Below are positions 30,334-38,656 of a DNA stretch of 38,656 nucleotides, piece after piece. Origin of the DNA: Acidithiobacillus sp. (GTDB lineage Bacteria > Pseudomonadota > Gammaproteobacteria > Acidithiobacillales > Acidithiobacillaceae); NCBI RefSeq assembly GCF_023256195.1, contig NZ_JAGDWX010000008.1, forward strand, positions 1 through 38,656, written 5' to 3'. The notes beneath the pieces are model-generated. The model did no database searches, had not been told where the DNA came from, and saw nothing but the letters and a program-made list of their open reading frames with translations. Made by a program: the position numbers and the translations under genes. Numbering within the stretch: the first letter of the stretch is position 1; the number at the start of each line of letters is the position of its first letter.

Positions 30334-30362
30334 TTGACAGCGCCCCGGCCGCATGTTAGGTT
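30334..30362 (+). promoter_or_regulatory. Candidate sigma70 promoter for the porin-CorA operon
   Basis: TTGACA (30334-30339, perfect -35) is followed after 17 bases by TAGGTT (30357-30362, 3 of 6 match to TATAAT). If used, transcription would start near 30369, giving a 5' leader of about 350 nt before the porin gene. A GAACTTGGAC 10-mer occurs twice in that leader (30394-30403 and 30552-30561). Confidence 0.5.
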
Positions 30363-30568
30363 CTGGCCACCTAAATTGGCGGGAGGTTCTACCGAACTTG
30401 GACAGTAGCCCTGGTTCAGCGCTCATCATCTGACTGGGTGTCCTTCGGCAGCCTTTGCCTCGGTCACCCGGTCCTCGGGTGGTCGCCTTTACTTCCTGTT
30501 ATCGCAGTTTGATCGTTCGCTGCACGAACTTGTGTCCGTTTCGGTTGGCCGGAACTTGGACGTGAGCT

Positions 30569-30667
30569 ATGCAGCGTGTGGAGAGAATGTCGGTGGATCC
30601 TGATCCGGAACCGGAACCGGTAGTGGTCGCATTTGCGGCCGCGGTTCCTTTGGTCAACGTTATGTAG
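30569..30667 (+). CDS. Candidate leader peptide with acidic/proline DPDPEPEP tract
   Basis: A 32-codon frame (ATG 30569, TAG 30665-30667) in the leader of the porin-CorA operon. It is too short for ordinary gene callers. The likely start is the internal ATG at 30587, preceded by GGAGAGA, giving a 26-residue peptide MSVDPDPEPEP followed by a hydrophobic tail VVVAFAAAVPLVNVM. The tract of alternating Asp/Glu and Pro lies at residues 4-11. Enterobacterial MgtL, the leader peptide of mgtA, starts MEPDPTP. Such acidic/proline N-termini are known to destabilise translating ribosomes at low Mg2+ and so report Mg2+ availability. The stop codon touches the 5' arm of a strong hairpin ending 3 bases before the porin Shine-Dalgarno sequence. 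Translation and function are inferred, not shown; a chance repeat (GATCC/GGAACC units) is the main alternative. Confidence 0.5.
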   Translation: MQRVERMSVDPDPEPEPVVVAFAAAVPLVNVM

Positions 30668-30706
30668 CCCCATCGGCGGCTCGCGACCGCGCATGCCGAT
30701 GGGGGC
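30667..30706 (+). promoter_or_regulatory. Strong leader hairpin between the leader ORF and the porin gene
   Basis: A 10-bp perfect stem (30668-30677 CCCCATCGGC with 30695-30704 GCCGATGGGG) has an inner GCG/CGC helix (83-85 with 90-92 of the 306xx block) closed by an ACCG tetraloop. It has no T-run, so it is not an intrinsic terminator. A ribosome stopping at the leader TAG (30665-30667) would cover and open its 5' arm. The porin Shine-Dalgarno GAGGAGG (30709-30715) follows directly. This suits translational or Rho-type control that depends on leader translation. Confidence 0.6.
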
Positions 30707-30719
30707 GTGAGGAGGCACG

Positions 30720-31844
30720 ATGCGCGGGTACGGTTGGGTACTGAGCTGGGTTCTGTTCTACGCCACGCTGTCACCGGCAGCCGCGGCAGCGAGCTTCTGG
30801 GGGGCATTTACCCCCCATGCGCACTTCGAGGGCGAATTCGTCGGCAACTTTGCCGGTGGGCTTGCGCGCGGCGGCACGGGAACGGCCTATTTCGAGGGCG
30901 GTTTCGATTGGGACAGTGAGGTCGCCGGCGCTTATCCCGGCGGCAAGGTCGTCGCCCGTTATCTGGCCGTGGACACGGGCCAGCCCGACCAGCTCTATGT
31001 GGGCGACGCGCAGGGGGTGAGCAATCTCACCACCGATTACAACATCAGTCGCCTGTACAAGCTCTATTACCGACAGAGCCTGGGTTCGTTCACCGCCCGC
31101 GTGGGGCTGCTCAATGCCAACGATTATTTCGACACGGTCGACACGGCCAGCTATCTGCTCTGCCCGTCCTATGGCATCTTTCCGGTTTGGAGCAGCAACC
31201 TGCCGGGCTCCAGCACCTATCCCTTTTCAAGCCTCGGCGCCATGGTGGCCATCGGCGGCGATCACCACCTGCTGGAGGCTGGGGTGTTCGGTGCCGATGC
31301 CATGCACCCCTACCGTCGGCCCCTCACTCACGGTGCGCTGATGCTGTTGCAATATACCCAGGCCGGCACACTCGGGGCCGGGGACTATACCGTCAAGCTG
31401 GGTGCCTTTCGCAACCGCCAGACCGCGGCATTGGCGGCCCAGCTCGGACCGCAGACCAGCGGCTTCTTTGGCGCGACGGAGTACCGCTTCCACGCCCTCG
31501 GTCTCGACTGGGGTGCCTTTCTGGTGGGCGGTGGTGCGCCCAAATCGGTCAATGCCGTACCCTGGTACGCGGGTGGAGGTCTACGTCTGAAGCACTGGTT
31601 TCCGGGCCGTCCCGAGGACGTGCTCTCCGCGGGTTTTTCCCGGGTGAGCCTGCGTGGTTTGCCCCACGCCGAAACCAACTACGAACTCACCGGTATCTTC
31701 GCGATCGGCCCAGGGGTGACCCTGCAGCCGGACATGCAGGTGATCGTCCACCCCGGTGGCAAACTGCCCACCGCTCTGGTGGGTATCCTACGGCTGGACA
31801 TCGACCTGGTTTCATTGGTCAAAAGCCAAGGAGTGGCCTTATGA
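30720..31844 (+). CDS. OprB-type outer-membrane porin
   Basis: 374 residues with a signal peptide (hydrophobic run residues 7-24, AAAAA just before the likely cleavage site). The mature part looks like the carbohydrate-selective porin OprB family: FEGEFVGNFAGGLARGG near the start of the mature chain, FDWD..VAGAYPGG, VGDAQGVSN, RLYKLYYRQ, FTARVGLLNANDYFD and a repeated pattern of short amphipathic strands to the C-terminus. It should form a beta-barrel in the outer membrane. ATG 30720 has GAGGAGG 4 bases upstream. Its stop overlaps the start of the first CorA gene (ATGA), so porin and CorA proteins are translationally coupled. A carbohydrate role would be odd here; a pore for metal ions or their complexes is the simplest reading of the context. 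Good family call, open substrate. Confidence 0.82.
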   Translation: MRGYGWVLSWVLFYATLSPAAAAASFWGAFTPHAHFEGEFVGNFAGGLARGGTGTAYFEGGFDWDSEVAGAYPGGKVVARYLAVDTGQPDQLYVGDAQGVSNLTTDYNISRLYKLYYRQSLGSFTARVGLLNANDYFDTVDTASYLLCPSYGIFPVWSSNLPGSSTYPFSSLGAMVAIGGDHHLLEAGVFGADAMHPYRRPLTHGALMLLQYTQAGTLGAGDYTVKLGAFRNRQTAALAAQLGPQTSGFFGATEYRFHALGLDWGAFLVGGGAPKSVNAVPWYAGGGLRLKHWFPGRPEDVLSAGFSRVSLRGLPHAETNYELTGIFAIGPGVTLQPDMQVIVHPGGKLPTALVGILRLDIDLVSLVKSQGVAL

Positions 31845-32776
31845 GCACCGTGCTGAAGGATACGCCACAAGCCCTTCCCATCGGTCCGCAGCGTCTTATG
31901 GCGGCGGGCTGGATCTGGCTCTACCAGCCCGATGCTGCCAGCCTCCAGAAGCTTGCGGCCGAGCTGGACGTGGATGAGGATTTTCTCTTCGACATCCTGG
32001 ACCCTGACGAGAATCCTCGCCTGCAGCGGGAGGATGACCACCTTCTGGGAATCCTGCCGGTCCCGGTCCGCCGTGACGACGACGATGGCTGGCTACTCCG
32101 CCCCCTGGGTTTCGTCCTGCAAGGGGAGACTCTGGTGACCATCAGCACCGTACAATGGACCTTCCTCCACGAGCTTTTTGCCACGGCGGGCAAGGATACA
32201 GCGTCCGCAGGGGCACAACGGCGCAACCTGCTGCGTATCGTCCAGGCTATCACCGAAATTTACGAGCAGGCCCTGGACGATCTGGTCCAGCGCATGGTGC
32301 GGCTGGAGGAGCTGCTGGACAGCACCCAGAGCAACGACGATATGTTCCGCTTGCTGGAGGTGGGCAAGGCGGCCCTGCAGATGCACGCCGCCCTGGCGGG
32401 GAACGTGGCCGTCGTTTTCAAGCTGTCGCGCCACCGCCAGTTGGCCTGGGAAAAAGATGAAAAGCGTCGTCTGAATCTCCTGGTGGCCGACCTGCAGGCC
32501 GTACACGAGCGTGCCGAGGTGCTCTCGCGCACCATGAACAGCACCATGGACGCTTACGGTGGTATGGTGCAGAACAATATCAACCATGGCCTGAAGGTGC
32601 TGACGACTTTGGCGTTGGTCCTCTACATCCCGGCCTTGTTGGCTACACTCTACGGTGTCAATCCGCCCATTCCCTTGCAGGACAAGCCCTGGATTTTCTG
32701 GGTCATTGTGATCGGCAGCTTCAGCCTGTCCGGTCTCATGGCGGCCGTCTTCCGCTACCGTCTCCGCTGGATCTGA
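31841..32776 (+). CDS. CorA-family protein 1 of 5 (filter triplet GVN)
   Basis: 311 residues with the CorA layout: soluble alpha/beta N-terminal domain (about 1-130), long helical stalk (about 130-250), two C-terminal transmembrane helices (about 253-271 and 286-305) and a basic C-terminus (RYRLRWI). The stalk-to-membrane junction keeps MDAYGGMVQNNINHGLK, typical of CorA. The selectivity-filter triplet, GMN in CorA, is GVN at 272-274 (YGVNPPIPLQD); ZntB-type members also vary at the middle residue. CorA proteins are pentameric Mg2+ (also Co2+/Ni2+) channels and ZntB a zinc transporter; the ion here is unknown. It starts inside the porin stop codon (ATGA). An apparent longer frame from 31187 is a shadow of the porin gene. 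Confidence 0.87.
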   Translation: MSTVLKDTPQALPIGPQRLMAAGWIWLYQPDAASLQKLAAELDVDEDFLFDILDPDENPRLQREDDHLLGILPVPVRRDDDDGWLLRPLGFVLQGETLVTISTVQWTFLHELFATAGKDTASAGAQRRNLLRIVQAITEIYEQALDDLVQRMVRLEELLDSTQSNDDMFRLLEVGKAALQMHAALAGNVAVVFKLSRHRQLAWEKDEKRRLNLLVADLQAVHERAEVLSRTMNSTMDAYGGMVQNNINHGLKVLTTLALVLYIPALLATLYGVNPPIPLQDKPWIFWVIVIGSFSLSGLMAAVFRYRLRWI

Positions 32777-32794
32777 ACCACGGGAGGAACTCGT

Positions 32795-33727
32795 ATGTCG
32801 GAATCCCTCAAACTCGTCGTCAGCCGCAGCGGCAGCGCCGACCCCTGCGCCACTTGGCAGCACCGGACCGTGGCCGACGATGCCGCGCTCGCCGCCACGG
32901 CCAGCGAGATGGGCCTGAGTGAAGCATTCCTGCGCCAATGTCTGGACCCCGATGAGATTCCCCACATCGATCGTGAGGGCGAGCAGATCCTGCTGCTGCT
33001 CCAGGCGCCATGGACGCACGAGGAGGCCACGGCCCCGCTTTTCATGGACACGGTTCCTCTGGGAATCCTCTTACGTCCGGCGGGGGTCGTCACCATCAGC
33101 GCCAAGCCCCTGCCGCTGTGGGATCGTCTGCACCGGGAGCTGTGCGGGGAGGGCGCCCGTAGCCTGCAGCGGGAAGCCTTTCTCGCGCGATTCTTCACGG
33201 AGCTCGCGCATGATTTCCTGGGCGCCATCGATCGCCTGGAGGCACAATTGGAAGTCGCCAAGGAGCAACTGCGTCGCTCCCAGAGCAATGCCGAGTTCTT
33301 TCGCCTGCTCTCCCTGCAGAAGAGCCTGATCTATCTGACAGCGGCACTGCGCGGCAATCTAGCCACGGGCGAGCGCTTGCTGCACTCGCCGCGCTGGCAG
33401 GGCAATGCCGAGGAACAGGAGCAATTGCGCGATGCCTTGGAGGATCTGCGTCAGGCTCGGGATACCGCCGAACTCATGACCAGCACCACCACCAACGCCA
33501 TGGACGCCTTTGCCGGCACCTTGCAGAACAATATCACCGTCGCCATCCGCGTCGTCACGGCCTGGACCGTGGTCATCACCGTTCCCATCGCCGTGATTTC
33601 CATCATGGCCATGAACACACCCCTGCCGCTGCACGACTGGCCTTATGCCTGGCCGGTACTCATGGGCGGCTCATTCGTGGCATCGGGGCTGCTCTATCTG
33701 GCCCTGCGTCGCAGTCAATGGTTGTGA
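32795..33727 (+). CDS. CorA-family protein 2 of 5 (filter triplet AMN)
   Basis: 310 residues, CorA architecture: N-terminal domain with CLDPDEIPHIDREGEQILLLLQAP (a standard CorA DPxExPx(I/L) segment), stalk helices, AMDAFAGTLQNNITVAIR at the membrane junction, and two transmembrane helices (about 255-272 and 286-303) ending RRSQWL. The filter triplet is AMN at 272-274 (MAMNTPLPLHD), so the first Gly of GMN is Ala while Asn is kept. The C-terminal 130 residues look closest to protein 3 of the array. It begins 18 bases after protein 1, with GGGAGGAA upstream of ATG 32795. Likely an inner-membrane divalent-cation channel subunit; the substrate is not deducible. Confidence 0.87.
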   Translation: MSESLKLVVSRSGSADPCATWQHRTVADDAALAATASEMGLSEAFLRQCLDPDEIPHIDREGEQILLLLQAPWTHEEATAPLFMDTVPLGILLRPAGVVTISAKPLPLWDRLHRELCGEGARSLQREAFLARFFTELAHDFLGAIDRLEAQLEVAKEQLRRSQSNAEFFRLLSLQKSLIYLTAALRGNLATGERLLHSPRWQGNAEEQEQLRDALEDLRQARDTAELMTSTTTNAMDAFAGTLQNNITVAIRVVTAWTVVITVPIAVISIMAMNTPLPLHDWPYAWPVLMGGSFVASGLLYLALRRSQWL

Positions 33728-33752
33728 GTGAAGCCATTCTGGAGCGCGATAT

Positions 33753-34700
33753 ATGAAAGAAGCAATGCTCGAAGGCCTCGGCGCCGGCGCCGAAATTCCG
33801 CTCAGCCCCGATCCGCAAGGCAAGGAACGGCGTTGGCTCAGCATCCCGCAGATGGAACCGGCGGAGCTTCCTTCGCTCGGTCGGCAGTTGGGGGTAGATC
33901 CCGGTTTCCTGGGCGACGCCCTGGATCGACACGAACGCCCCAGCCTGCACCGGGAGGGTGAGACCACCATCATCCTGCTGCGCGTACCGCTGCTTTCGGC
34001 CGAGCAGCCTGGCCCTTCCTGGGTAACGGTGCCGCTGGGCATCCTCCTGCAAAAGTGGCAACTGGTGACCATCGAGACCCAAGCCTTCGGCTTTCTCGAG
34101 CAGCTGCGGGCCCGGCTCGGCAAGCGGGCCCGGCGCATCCGCCTGCGCGAGGCGCTGGCAGAGCTGCTGCAGGCCATGGCACAGGAATACCTGCGCTCGC
34201 TGCGCCAGGTAAAGAAGGAAATGGACGCGGTGGAACACGATCTGCGCGCATCGCAGAACAACGACGATTTCTACCGCATGGTGTCCCTGCAGAATACCCT
34301 GACGCATTTTGCCGCCGCCCTGCGCGGCAACATCGGTGTGCTGCAGCGGCTCCTGCAAATGCCCGTCTTCCTCGACGACAAGGAGGATCTCGAGGACGTT
34401 GCCGACGCCCTCGTGGATCTGCAGCAGGCGCGGGAAATGGCGGAGCTCTATGCCGCTACCCTGACGGATCTGCTGGACGCCTATGTGGGTGTGCTGCAGA
34501 ACAACATCGCCAATCGCGTCAAGAAACTCACGGCCTGGACGGTGGTATTGGCGGTATCGCTGATGTCCACGAGTCTCTATGGCATGAACGTCCCTTTGCC
34601 CTGGCAACACTGGCGGTACATCACTCCCACCCTGGTGGGCGGCGGTTTCCTCATCGCGGCGGCGATCTACGTCTACTTCCGTCGGCACGACTGGATCTGA
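33753..34700 (+). CDS. CorA-family protein 3 of 5 (canonical GMN)
   Basis: 315 residues and the only one of the five with the canonical CorA triplet, GMN at 277-279 in SLYGMNVPLPWQHW. An N-terminal domain with ALDRHERPSLHREGETTIILLRVP, a stalk with QNNDDFYRMVSLQNTL, the junction LLDAYVGVLQNNIANRVKK, two transmembrane helices and the C-terminal YFRRHDWI all fit CorA. The usual acidic MPE after GMN is replaced by PLPWQHW, so the periplasmic loop lacks the acidic residues thought to attract cations. It lies 25 bases after protein 2, with GGAG 8 bases before ATG 33753. It is the best candidate for a conducting Mg2+ channel subunit in the set. Confidence 0.9.
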   Translation: MKEAMLEGLGAGAEIPLSPDPQGKERRWLSIPQMEPAELPSLGRQLGVDPGFLGDALDRHERPSLHREGETTIILLRVPLLSAEQPGPSWVTVPLGILLQKWQLVTIETQAFGFLEQLRARLGKRARRIRLREALAELLQAMAQEYLRSLRQVKKEMDAVEHDLRASQNNDDFYRMVSLQNTLTHFAAALRGNIGVLQRLLQMPVFLDDKEDLEDVADALVDLQQAREMAELYAATLTDLLDAYVGVLQNNIANRVKKLTAWTVVLAVSLMSTSLYGMNVPLPWQHWRYITPTLVGGGFLIAAAIYVYFRRHDWI

Positions 34701-34711
34701 GGAGGACGGTC

Positions 34712-35653
34712 ATGAGCGCGTGGTTCTTCAAGAACGATCAAGGCTGGCTGGATGTCGACCACTACGCGGGCCCGGGCATCTATCTGCTCGAGCCTGCCGA
34801 CACCGGCATGGTCGCCGCCCTGGACGCCGCCCTCGGCGCTCAGCTGCCGCAACTGGCCTTGCCGGCACAAGCGCCACGGCAGATACCGCGCCTGGTCTTG
34901 GATGCCAATGGTGTGCTGGCATTGCGCCTCAATGTCGTCGTTCCGCGGCGCGAGCCGGAACTGCGGCGCAGCGAGGAGGAGCTGCTGCAGGCGCGCCTGA
35001 TCTGGGCGCGAGACCATCTGATTCTGGTAGCCCCGCAGCAGCACTGGCGGCGCATCGTTCGCGACAGCCTCGAACTGGATCCCCATGCGCCCCAGGACAA
35101 AATCCTGCAGCGCATTCTGCTGACGGCCATCTACAGCCACGAGAGTGCGACCCAGCGCATCGTCGCGGAACTACGCGAACTGCGCAGTGCCCTGCGTAGC
35201 TCACTCAATAACCGAGAGATGCGTCGCATCGTGGTCCTGAACCGTCGCCTTGGCGAGCTCGTGGTATCCATTCGCGATCTCGGCCTCACCCTGCGCAGTC
35301 TGCGCGCCGAATTGGACGACGATGACCCCCTGCGCAATCGTATCGACGAGATCTACGACGAGCAAAGGCGCATCGAGGAGATTCTGACCCTGATCTGGGA
35401 TCGTTATCTTGGCGTGACCAACGCCTACGCCGGCATCATCCAGAACAACGCCCACACCATCATGAAGGTCATGACCGCCTACCTGGCCTTTCTCATGGTA
35501 CCCATAGCCTTGATCATGCCCTTTCACATGAACACCGTCTTGCCCATGCAGCACTTCCACTACGCCTGGTATGTGCTCCTGCTCTACAGCTTCGGTACCT
35601 CGGGCTGGTTCTTTTTCCAGTGGGGACGCAAGCGCGGTTTTTTTCACCTTTGA
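34712..35653 (+). CDS. CorA-family protein 4 of 5 (filter triplet HMN)
   Basis: 313 residues. The N-terminal domain is recognisably CorA-like but diverged from proteins 1-3: the DPxExP segment is absent or altered and RLVLDANGVLALRLNVVVP takes the central-strand place. The stalk carries SLNNREMRRIVVLNRRL and a DDDDP acidic turn (202-206). The membrane junction NAYAGIIQNNAHTIMK is conserved. The filter triplet is HMN at 272-274 (PFHMNTVLPMQHFHY), with three more His/aromatic residues in the loop, which could favour a transition metal or respond to pH. The C-terminus is GRKRGFFHL. It starts 11 bases after protein 3 with GAGGAGG; the longer frame from 34055 is a shadow of protein 3. The family is sound, the substrate unknown. 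Confidence 0.85.
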   Translation: MSAWFFKNDQGWLDVDHYAGPGIYLLEPADTGMVAALDAALGAQLPQLALPAQAPRQIPRLVLDANGVLALRLNVVVPRREPELRRSEEELLQARLIWARDHLILVAPQQHWRRIVRDSLELDPHAPQDKILQRILLTAIYSHESATQRIVAELRELRSALRSSLNNREMRRIVVLNRRLGELVVSIRDLGLTLRSLRAELDDDDPLRNRIDEIYDEQRRIEEILTLIWDRYLGVTNAYAGIIQNNAHTIMKVMTAYLAFLMVPIALIMPFHMNTVLPMQHFHYAWYVLLLYSFGTSGWFFFQWGRKRGFFHL

Positions 35654-35663
35654 GGAGGGGGAT

Positions 35664-36581
35664 ATGCTGCAGATCATTCGCAATGCTTTTCTGACGGGCA
35701 ACGATCGGGCGCGCGACTGGATGAAAATCGCGGCACCCTCGCCCATGGAGCTCAGCCAGGCCGCCACCACCATCCAGGCGGAAGAAAGTTTCCTCCGTCG
35801 CCGTCTCCAGGGCGGACCGGTGCGCCCCGTGGTGGAGGACTCCGGTTTTTTGACCTTTCAGATGTTGGTGCCGACCCATCAGGCCAAGGCGGGGCAGGTG
35901 GATTTTCACCTCGTCCCTCTCAATATCTTTCTGGTGCCTCACTATTTCGTGACCCTGAGCGCGGAACCTCTGGGCTTTCTCGACACCATTATCCGCCCCG
36001 AAGCGCCCATCCGCCGTTGGGAGCTGATTCTACGCATCGCCAAGGAGATCGCGCTGCGCTACGTGCACATGGCCAGGGACGTGGCCAAGGAGACAGAGAG
36101 CATCGAGGCGGAGCTCAAGGTGGCTCAGCGCCACCACGTCATCTATCGGGCGCTGGAAATCAACGACCGTCTGTTGCAGCTGGATATGGGGCTGCTGCAG
36201 CTGGAATACGTCATCGACGAGATGCGCGAACGTATGCCCAAGGATTCACCGAGCTTCATGGAGGAGTTCACGGATGCCCGCATCGAGATCCGTCAGGCGC
36301 GGGAGCAGGTGGATCTGGAGCAGCAGACCCTCAACGAGATCATGGATGCCTATACCTACATCATCCACAACAACGTCAACCACATCTTCAAATTCATGGC
36401 GGCCTTGATCATCCTGGCGTCCATCCCCATCATCGTCTGCGATTCGGCCTCCATGAACGTCCCGTTGGGCGCCTTTCGGACCTCGCCCTGGGGTTTCCCC
36501 CTGGATGTGGGCTTCCTGCTGGTGGTAGAGGCCGTCACCGCCTGGGTTTTTTATCGCAAGGGATGGCTCACCCTCGGCTGA
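35664..36581 (+). CDS. CorA-family protein 5 of 5 (filter triplet SMN)
   Basis: 305 residues, the most diverged of the set. It has a shorter N-terminal domain (FLTFQMLVP, FHLVPLNIFLVPHYFVTLS) and a stalk rich in Glu/Arg heptads (about 120-225). The junction IMDAYTYIIHNNVNHIFK is clearly CorA-type, followed by transmembrane helices at about 244-262 and 280-297 and a basic tail (YRKGWLTLG). The filter triplet is SMN at 263-265 (DSASMNVPLGAFRTSPWG); the following loop lacks the PLP-aromatic pattern of the other four, and an Asp (D260) sits just before the triplet. ATG 35664 has GAGGAGGGGG upstream and lies 10 bases after protein 4. It ends the operon, 21 bases from the convergent NRAMP-like gene. 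Confidence 0.83.
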   Translation: MLQIIRNAFLTGNDRARDWMKIAAPSPMELSQAATTIQAEESFLRRRLQGGPVRPVVEDSGFLTFQMLVPTHQAKAGQVDFHLVPLNIFLVPHYFVTLSAEPLGFLDTIIRPEAPIRRWELILRIAKEIALRYVHMARDVAKETESIEAELKVAQRHHVIYRALEINDRLLQLDMGLLQLEYVIDEMRERMPKDSPSFMEEFTDARIEIRQAREQVDLEQQTLNEIMDAYTYIIHNNVNHIFKFMAALIILASIPIIVCDSASMNVPLGAFRTSPWGFPLDVGFLLVVEAVTAWVFYRKGWLTLG

Positions 36582-36602: not shown

Positions 36603-37862
36603 TCACCAGCCGGGAACGCTGGTAATGCCGCCGTAGACGCCGAGGCCCGCGGTGAGAAGGCTGACCCCGACTACCAGCCAGAGGTACCAGCCCCGCAAGC
36701 GGTGCTCGGGCGGCAGGGCGTGGATGGCCAGAGCCACCAGAAAACCCAGCACCAGAGGCAGCAGCAGCGCGTTCATCACCTCCACGGCAATATCCAGGGC
36801 GACCAGATTGGGGATCAGGGCAACGGCCAGGGCACCCGCAAGGACGATGAAGGTGTAGGTCCCGTAGAACCAAGGCGCCTCACGCGGATGATACTCCAGC
36901 GAATGGCGAAACCCCGTTACCTCACCCCAGCCCCAGGCACCGGCCAGAGAGGCGACGATGGCCGCCACCATGCCGGCGCCCACAATGCCTACGGAAAAGA
37001 TCAAATAGCCCCAGGTGCTGCCCAGGAAAGGAACGATGGCCTCCGATAGTTGCTGCACGGTATTGAGGGGAGCGTTGGGATTGCGCAGGGCGATGGTGGC
37101 GGCAACGGCCACGAGCACCGCGGCCATGATGGACTGGGTGACGATGGCGCCAAAAGCGGTGTCCCAGCGCGCCTCTCGATACTGTTCCGGCTGCAGACCC
37201 TTATCGGCGACGGCCGACTGTTGGTAGAAGACCATCCAGGGCATGATCACGGCACCGATGTTGGCTGCCACCAACATCATATAATGGCGATTGCCTACCG
37301 GGATCTCGAGGAAATCCCGCCCCATCTGGCCGAGATTGGGATGGCTGACGATGGCAATAGCGAAGAAGACCAGTTCAAAGAGACCCAGGATGAGCGCGAT
37401 GCGCTCCACCCGTCGGTAGGAGCCGGTCCACACGATGAGCAGCAGCGCCGCTGCTGCCAGGGCAATGCCCACGCCTCGCGGTAAACCGTAGAGCTCGCTG
37501 ACGCCGGCCATACCCGAGAACTCCGTGAGCAGTGCACCGGTGGTGGCGATGCTCAGCCCAGCCACGGAAAGATAGGCCCAGCCGCCGCCGAAACGCTCCC
37601 GGATCAATTCTCCGTGACCCTTTCCCGTGAAAATGCCCAGACGTACCGTCAGTTCCTGGACGATGAACAAGATCGGCATGAGGATGAACTGCAGCAGCAA
37701 TAGCCGATATCCCCACTGGGCCCCGCTCTGCGCCGCTGTGATGATGCTGCCGACGTCGGTATCGGCGAGCATGACCACAAGACCTGGACCGAGCACGGCC
37801 AGAAAGGTTTTCCAGTGCCGACGGGGCAGGGAGCTTGTGGGGTGTTTGGCGGCAAGAACCAT
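36603..37862 (-). CDS. Atypical NRAMP-superfamily metal transporter
   Basis: 419 residues with 11 or so hydrophobic helices and the NRAMP fold signature. The TM1 metal motif, DPGN in MntH, reads DVGS (36-39, in LADTDVGSIITAAQ), so the Asp and Gly are kept but Pro and Asn are lost. The TM6 MPH motif reads MPW (207-209), keeping Met but not His. These changes set it apart from MntH-type Mn/Fe transporters and suggest a separate clade with other selectivity; Mg2+ is one possibility, since NRAMP-related Mg2+ transporters exist. ATG 37862 lacks a strong Shine-Dalgarno sequence. It has a good promoter with a Fur-box-like operator and lies between the CorA array and an MgtC gene. The superfamily is firm, the ion unknown. 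Confidence 0.85.
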   Translation of the reverse strand: MVLAAKHPTSSLPRRHWKTFLAVLGPGLVVMLADTDVGSIITAAQSGAQWGYRLLLLQFILMPILFIVQELTVRLGIFTGKGHGELIRERFGGGWAYLSVAGLSIATTGALLTEFSGMAGVSELYGLPRGVGIALAAAALLLIVWTGSYRRVERIALILGLFELVFFAIAIVSHPNLGQMGRDFLEIPVGNRHYMMLVAANIGAVIMPWMVFYQQSAVADKGLQPEQYREARWDTAFGAIVTQSIMAAVLVAVAATIALRNPNAPLNTVQQLSEAIVPFLGSTWGYLIFSVGIVGAGMVAAIVASLAGAWGWGEVTGFRHSLEYHPREAPWFYGTYTFIVLAGALAVALIPNLVALDIAVEVMNALLLPLVLGFLVALAIHALPPEHRLRGWYLWLVVGVSLLTAGLGVYGGITSVPGW

Positions 37863-38062: not shown

Positions 38063-38656
38063 TCATCCGCCGCCAGGATTCTGATTCCAGAAAATCTGCT
38101 GCACGCCGGGGATCTGCTCCAGGGCATGGATGGCTCGATCCAGTTCCTCTTCCGAAATGTGGCTGGGCAGCAGGGTGGCCCGCATTTCCGTCTCCACCGA
38201 ACCGAAGGGGCGCATGCTGAATTCGCGCACCGGGTAGCCCGCGGCATCCAGGATGTCCGAGGCTTGCTCCTGGATACCGCCCTCCAGACCCCGGCGAACG
38301 ATAAGAAAGACCGTGGCTGTGGTTTCGGTACTGTCACCCGTGGGTAGACGATTGATCTGGTTGGCGACGGGGCGCAAAAGAGTATTGGCCGCAAGGACGA
38401 AAGCTGCGGCGATGATGGCCGGCGCCCATTGCCCCGAGCCAGCGCAGGCACCCACCGCCGCCGAACCCCAGATGGTGGCGGCAGTATTCAGGCCGCGCAC
38501 ATTCACCCCCTCCTTCATGATGGTGCCCGCGCCCAGGAAGCCGATGCCTGAGATGACATAAGCGACGATGCGCGCAAGCTCCGGATCGCCACCGATTCGC
38601 CAACCCAAATTCACGAATATGGCAGCGCCAACGGCTACCAGAGTGTTGGTGCGCAA
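38063..38656 (-). CDS. MgtC/SapB family protein (N-terminus outside window)
   Basis: 197 residues are visible and the frame is open at the right edge. The first codons read LRTNTLVAVGAA, an internal MgtC motif that normally follows about 40-50 residues of membrane segment, so the true start lies beyond the window. YVISGIGFLGAGTIMKEG and VRGLNTAATIW are the family hallmarks. The C-terminal part (about 115-195 of the visible chain) is an ACT-like cytoplasmic domain. MgtC proteins help survival at low Mg2+ and in acid and modulate ATP synthase or phosphate uptake in pathogens; others have unclear roles. Its place beside the CorA array and NRAMP-like gene strengthens a divalent-metal theme. Its stop is 200 bases from the NRAMP start, so co-transcription is possible but not needed. 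Confidence 0.9.
   Translation of the reverse strand: MRTNTLVAVGAAIFVNLGWRIGGDPELARIVAYVISGIGFLGAGTIMKEGVNVRGLNTAATIWGSAAVGACAGSGQWAPAIIAAAFVLAANTLLRPVANQINRLPTGDSTETTATVFLIVRRGLEGGIQEQASDILDAAGYPVREFSMRPFGSVETEMRATLLPSHISEEELDRAIHALEQIPGVQQIFWNQNPGGG

Follow-up and report, generated by a model that had tools for sequence, protein, structure and literature searches.

Does the short open reading frame (ORF) in the leader of a predicted porin–CorA operon couple Mg2+ uptake to the stability of the translating ribosome? To our knowledge, Mg2+ sensing by ribosome destabilization on an acidic/proline peptide is known only from enterobacterial leaders. In MgtL, the sequence EPDP at residues 2–5 makes ribosomes drop off when Mg2+ is low, which leads to mgtA transcription (excerpt of PMC11282234), and in MgtQ, Asp2 and Glu5 promote mgtB translation via ribosome destabilization (excerpt of PMC8092293). 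For CorL, efficient translation lowers corA expression, and in both mgtA and corA the upstream ORF is placed inside a three-way junction (excerpt of PMC11552253). The region examined here is contig 23 of a 1.98-Mb genome that is 99.99% complete; "the window" denotes the whole stretch of DNA analyzed, 38.7 kb in length.

The genes downstream of the leader ORF encode predicted Mg2+ transporters, one porin and five CorA proteins by their Pfam families, in agreement with the first-pass annotation of the locus.

30710..30715, + strand: Shine-Dalgarno sequence of oprB, AGGAGG, from the sequence
30720..31844, + strand: oprB, OprB-family porin (PF04966, E = 4.9e-16)
31838..32776, + strand: corA1 (PF01544, E = 6e-43)
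32795..33727, + strand: corA2 (PF01544, E = 2.9e-42)
33753..34700, + strand: corA3, with the canonical GMN motif (PF01544, E = 5e-44, and motif)
34718..35653, + strand: corA4 (PF01544, E = 2.2e-18)
35661..36581, + strand: corA5 (PF01544, E = 4.6e-22)

The genome has no CorA genes besides these five, MgtE is found in neither this genome (G000) nor its congener G001, and matches to the Mg P-type ATPase MgtA occur in both only below cut-off. On these grounds, oprB-corA1-5 appears to be the genome's main operon dedicated to Mg2+ uptake, and the location of the sole CorA genes in it fits Mg2+ as the signal. The CorA signature tripeptides are, in gene order, GVN, AMN, GMN, HMN and SMN, and the order is the same in G001. 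The GMN motif matters for Mg2+ in CorA; because four of the five proteins deviate from its canonical form, Mg2+ is not certain as the substrate of all five. CorA is a pentamer, so a heteropentamer of the five adjacent paralogues (31838–36581, + strand) is conceivable.

Beyond corA5, a gene on the − strand (36603–37862) encodes an Nramp-family protein whose metal site, judged by eye, reads DxxS (TDVGS) and AxxM, with Trp in place of His (MPWM). This differs both from the classical site and from the NRMT motif, given as DxxG-TxxA/T in an excerpt of PMC8806188. Upstream of the Nramp gene, an MgtC-family gene (38063–38656, − strand; match below the curated cut-off) runs past the window, and its position beside the Nramp gene suggests that the locus is a divalent-metal island. 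Outside the genus, the nearest homologue of OprB (59% identity; L007, G026:C47, 1–1053 and 1411–2556) also follows an Nramp gene, which suggests that this type of porin accompanies metal transporters elsewhere too.

The coding features of the leader are as follows.

30580..30583, + strand: GGAG, a Shine-Dalgarno-like element for the leader ORF, spaced 3 nt from ATG 30587 and 9 nt from GTG 30593; kept in G001
30587..30667, + strand: leader ORF of 26 codons, translated as MSVDPDPEPEPVVVAFAAAVPLVNVM and then stop; the G001 counterpart is MAVDPDPEPEPMAVAVAAGVPVVNIL and then stop
30596..30619, + strand: DPDPEPEP tract, residues 4–11 from ATG 30587; G001 has 3 substitutions in these 24 nt, each at the third position of a proline codon

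The stop codon of the leader ORF, TAG, occupies 30665–30667, and the oprB ATG at 30720 comes 52 nt later. Translation and coordinates thus agree with the earlier description of an acidic/proline-alternating ORF 52 nt before the porin, and the intervening stop codon rules out an N-terminal extension of oprB. That description had allowed for 26 to 32 codons. The 26-codon version is conserved; the longer in-frame version (30569–30667, MQRVERMSVDPDPEPEPVVVAFAAAVPLVNVM and then stop), to which ATG 30569 adds six codons, is not, since this ATG is TTG in G001. ATG 30587, conserved in G001, is directly abutted by GGAGAGA and places the tract from residue 4, as had been noted. GTG 30593 is conserved in G001 as well and represents a further possible start; from the sequence, either codon could be used. 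Initiation at ATG 30587 may be weak because of the short spacing of only 3 nt to GGAG. With GTG 30593 as the start, the tract would comprise residues 2–9 and begin at the same position as EPDP of MgtL.

The alternation of acidic and proline residues close to the N-terminus exceeds what chance predicts. The 354-nt leader was shuffled 100,000 times with its dinucleotide composition preserved, and the shuffles were scored for tandem [DE]P starting at codons 2–8 after a start codon. Two tandem units occurred in 192 shuffles and three or four in none; the real leader has four. Across both strands of the 38.7-kb window, no other ORF of at most 60 amino acids carries two or more tandem [DE]P units in this position.

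Functional relevance of the ORF was assessed by a comparison of two sequences, those of this genome and of the single congener G001, in which the operon is syntenic and the leader matches at 75%. Identity is distributed unevenly along the leader: 84% in the promoter, 84% in a 5' block (30364–30485), 51% in the spacer that follows (30486–30574), and 87% from the Shine-Dalgarno sequence to the start codon; the ORF has 81%, and the first 18 nt past the stop have 61%. The ORF alignment contains no indels, and the reading frame, start and stop are kept. The two species differ at 15 of 78 nt in the ORF (6 first, 2 second and 7 third codon positions); all three substitutions in the tract are synonymous, and the four acidic residues are identical. 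An alignment with relatives was the check that the first-pass annotation had suggested, and in G001 its outcome supports the ORF: frame and acidic/proline residues persist, and no indel shifts the frame.

Scored by frame, the substitutions give +7 in the sense frame, the only positive value; the other five frames range from −5 to −23. Antisense frames score −5 to −19, which rules out an antisense gene as the cause of the conservation. When the same 15 substitutions were placed at random 200,000 times, a BLOSUM score at least as high as that observed was reached in 0.26% of placements, and in 0.053% together with an unchanged tract; plain peptide identity, 18 of 26, is unremarkable and was found in 29.5% of placements. 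Given the frame score, the BLOSUM simulation and the unchanged tract, the leader peptide appears to be under selection in this comparison of only two sequences, and the ORF is very likely functional. It would be surprising if the ORF were non-functional and its similarity simply left over from a common ancestor in a leader rich in G+C. Such a reading would accommodate the restriction to two genomes, the status of the peptide as a prediction and the poor GGAG spacing; against it, the adjoining spacer has drifted to 51% identity versus 81% in the ORF, and only the sense frame is conservative. We consider it very improbable.

Selection on the peptide could also reflect a product that acts in trans. 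The C-terminal half is hydrophobic in both species, which would be unnecessary for a peptide acting purely as an N-terminal destabilizer of ribosomes and counts against such a role. The substitutions outside codon 2 all exchange hydrophobic or small residues (V, A, F, L, M, G, I) among themselves, so the peptide past the tract seems constrained. A functional small hydrophobic peptide acting on the porin or the CorA proteins, in the manner of the small peptides MgtS and MgtR, would account for this. However, the hydrophobic stretch, VVVAFAAAVPLVNVM, has only 15 residues, Pro and Asn among them, and the 26-residue peptide is devoid of basic residues. Furthermore, every change stays hydrophobic in 2.5% of random placements, and a hairpin within the ORF can supply part of the constraint. 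Trans action by the peptide is thus improbable, if less so than a non-functional ORF.

Predicted features of the leader RNA include this hairpin and several elements outside the ORF.

30334..30362, + strand: predicted promoter, TTGACA, 17 nt, extended −10 TGTTAGGTT (TGnTAGGTT), read from the sequence
30364..30485, + strand: 5' block with a possible structure, conserved in G001 at 102 of 122 positions
30461..30485, + strand: hairpin GGTCACCCG..CGGGTGGTC, competing with pairings of the 5' block; terminator-like scan match with a weak T tail
30613..30648, + strand: hairpin within the ORF (GGAACC..GGTTCC); one compensatory pair change in G001
30668..30704, + strand: intercistronic hairpin directly after the stop and before the oprB Shine-Dalgarno sequence; −29.6 kcal/mol, z −2.82

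The promoter, which reads TTGACA-17-TGCTAGGTT in G001, was missed by a generic scan, and its −10 hexamer fits at 3 of 6 positions. From its position we infer a transcription start near 30369. The 5' block that follows may fold into a multi-helix domain. Its RNAalifold structure has 35 pairs, all of them kept in both species, 6 via one-sided G-U changes and none by a double change. Single-sequence folds have z-scores of −1.35 and −1.54, and their shapes differ between the species. The hairpin at 30461..30485 also appears in the predicted fold of G001, where its tail is not T-rich. Because the folds differ, the z-scores are weak and the 3' hairpin competes, the structure of the 5' block is treated here as a lead rather than a finding.

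These data bear on the idea that the leader is in essence a structured RNA regulator, with a riboswitch-like 5' block and hairpins, in which the ORF is incidental or minor. A 5' block as well conserved as the ORF, with all predicted pairs kept and competing hairpins, is what such a regulator would show. The lack of double changes among its pairs and the weak, divergent single-sequence folds argue against it, and it leaves the codon-wise pattern of the ORF and its kept start and stop unexplained; we judge it improbable, marginally more so than a peptide acting in trans. By Rfam covariance models, the leader is not recognized as an M-box or another catalogued riboswitch: there was no match at gathering scores in the window, two unrelated hits far under their gathering scores at 30340–30730 with E up to 10, and two unrelated hits under gathering scores for L003.

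How the leader ORF might communicate with oprB was considered at the level of the intercistronic RNA. The fold of the ORF itself has z-scores of only −0.99 and −0.38. G001 rebuilds an equivalent intercistronic hairpin with a partly different 5' arm (−25.6 kcal/mol, z −1.21). In the window, the modeled accessibility of the oprB Shine-Dalgarno sequence rises from 0.14 to 0.42 upon placement of a ribosome at the stop codon; in G001 it falls from 0.11 to 0.05. A simple translational switch at oprB common to both species is rejected because the modeled changes go in opposite directions. No intrinsic terminator common to both species was recognized in a scan of the window and an inspection by eye of the G001 tail, nor was a shared C-rich, Rho-like stretch evident from C/G ratios.

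Based on these results, a model can be formulated in which the leader ORF is a cis-acting, lineage-specific and probably convergent MgtL-like regulator of oprB-corA1-5, with ribosome destabilization at low Mg2+ relieving attenuation; we give this model about an even chance of being correct. With ample cytosolic Mg2+, ribosomes would pass DPDPEPEP and complete the ORF, and downstream expression would stay low. Under Mg2+ scarcity, the acidic/proline nascent N-terminus would destabilize the 70S ribosome, which would drop off before it had read more than ~11 codons. Refolding of the leader RNA would then allow the porin and CorA channels to be expressed, through a coupling step that could act on transcription, by way of Rho or pausing, or on translation. 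That the ORF is translated, that ribosomes are destabilized on it, that Mg2+ is the signal and in which direction the operon responds are inferred from the analogous MgtL and MgtQ; that low Mg2+ should abort the leader ORF and release the operon follows from the same analogy, extended to CorL. A more ambitious version would see an independently evolved Mg2+ sensor, in which an eight-residue, perfectly alternating peptide, together with a new conserved 5' RNA block, would sense Mg2+ through 70S stability and govern the main dedicated Mg2+ uptake of the cell, from the porin in the outer membrane to the five CorA subunits in the inner membrane, perhaps a heteropentamer. We regard this version as less likely than not.

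Alternatively, a translated cis-regulatory leader could respond to a signal other than Mg2+, such as ATP via EttA, proline-tRNA charging, EF-P or ribosome stress. A Pro-Pro pair is the usual EF-P dependency, and the leader peptide contains none, although four Pro codons lie in the tract. Pausing at acidic residues early in a peptide, those of MgtL among them, is relieved by EttA (excerpt of PMC11282234), and the Salmonella leader ORFs mgtM and mgtP respond to ATP and charged tRNA-Pro (excerpt of PMC8092293). However, the genes downstream are a porin and CorA rather than biosynthetic genes, which also rules out a generic amino-acid attenuator, and all four acidic residues are identical in the two species. 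A different signal is hence unlikely, while being the most credible of the alternatives to the MgtL-like model.

The distribution of the leader is narrow. Its DNA was matched in G000 and G001 only, among 57 relatives, and no match was found in plasmid records. An OprB search of genome contigs returned 42 pattern stretches and no confirmed relatives. The leader peptide is convincing in 2 of 29 family genomes and missing from the 27 others; weak matches in G011 (E = 0.109) and G027 (E = 0.136) are surrounded by unrelated frames and were attributed to chance. The covariance model of the 5' block likewise finds 2 of the 29, and a scan of both strands for the motif ORF at 30 OprB and 30 CorA loci gave 4 hits, all in G000 or G001. 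Related corA genes are matched more widely, in 22 of the 29 genomes including G000 and G001 and with other genera among them. In eight stretches upstream of corA in other genera, no such leader was found (the L073 stretch ends before the gene start; the both-strand scan covers L073); in L077, two D/E/P-rich frames, one very long and one of 35 codons, are not alternating. Arrays of corA are also present in further genera of this family (L067–L084), and the arrangement of a porin with a long leader is absent from the upstream stretches read.

Since peptide, 5' block and motif ORF were found only in G000 and G001, the leader represents a genus-level innovation as far as the 29 family genomes show. 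The word "independent", which had been applied to its relation to MgtL, holds in the sense that nothing similar occurs in the 27 other family genomes and that the resemblance is limited to the D/E-P tract. By reading, this tract is presumably all that the leader peptide has in common with MgtL.

Broader pattern searches place the ORF in context. Three tandem [DE]P units are hit in 26 of 29 family genomes; 30 loci inspected (L035–L064) are mostly long frames or simple repeats, with some short frames among those listed (e.g., L044, L045, L049, L052, L056 and L059), and nine further hits in G000 and G001 show nothing leader-like. In 369 genomes of the class, the pattern GGAG-ATG-xx-[DE]P[DE]P hits 10 genomes and yields three ORFs of fewer than 30 codons: the leader ORF described here, the 7-codon L111 and the 19-codon L113. 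The last of these (G044:C10, 1513; MSSEPEPASQASAVWFLGK and then stop) lies in another genome of the class, ends 3 nt before a gene that by eye resembles argB, and is possibly another acidic/proline leader ORF. In genome contigs, the pattern ATG-xx-([DE]P)4 has at least 126 matches at at least 119 loci, with at least 39 frames of 70 amino acids or fewer (one a 1-amino-acid artefact); among the matches listed, with spacing fixed at two residues, there is no convincing Shine-Dalgarno-led leader ORF. Among the titles and abstracts listed from the open-access literature on Acidithiobacillus Mg transport and CorA, on Acidithiobacillus leader peptides and on ribosome destabilization by acidic residues, none describes such a leader outside enterobacteria.

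If the MgtL-like model is correct, the locus would represent a second origin, outside enterobacteria, of Mg2+ sensing via ribosome destabilization. It would show that the mechanism evolves readily, and would link a porin of the outer membrane to the stability of the ribosome. A short ORF with a Shine-Dalgarno sequence and tandem [DE]P at codons 2–8 provides a rule by which others may be sought.

The leader relates to known systems as follows. M-box RNAs provide leader regulation of Mg2+-transport genes, relatives of corA and Nramp included (excerpt of PMC4072509); the present leader likewise precedes predicted Mg2+-transport genes, but it has no Rfam match at gathering scores. With CorL, which acts on corA in Salmonella and E. 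coli, it shares the position of a leader ORF upstream of corA, whereas acidic and proline residues are sparse in CorL (excerpt of PMC11552253), and the present leader has a strong tract and is followed first by a porin gene. MgtQ, located between mgtC and mgtB in Salmonella, resembles it in having acidic codons in a short ORF just upstream of a Mg2+-transporter gene; in contrast, MgtQ is an intergenic ORF of 8 codons that frees a sequestered ribosome-binding site, and no species-shared switch was found here. From MgtL, the leader ORF differs in its 26 codons, its eight alternating residues versus EPDP, its hydrophobic tail and its location after a possibly structured 5' block instead of inside it, as well as in the porin and five CorA proteins downstream in place of a P-type ATPase and in the bacterial lineage. 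With the same system, acting on mgtA in Salmonella and E. coli, it has in common a short leader ORF, a Mg2+-uptake gene under its control or predicted control, and the N-terminal alternation of acidic residues and proline.
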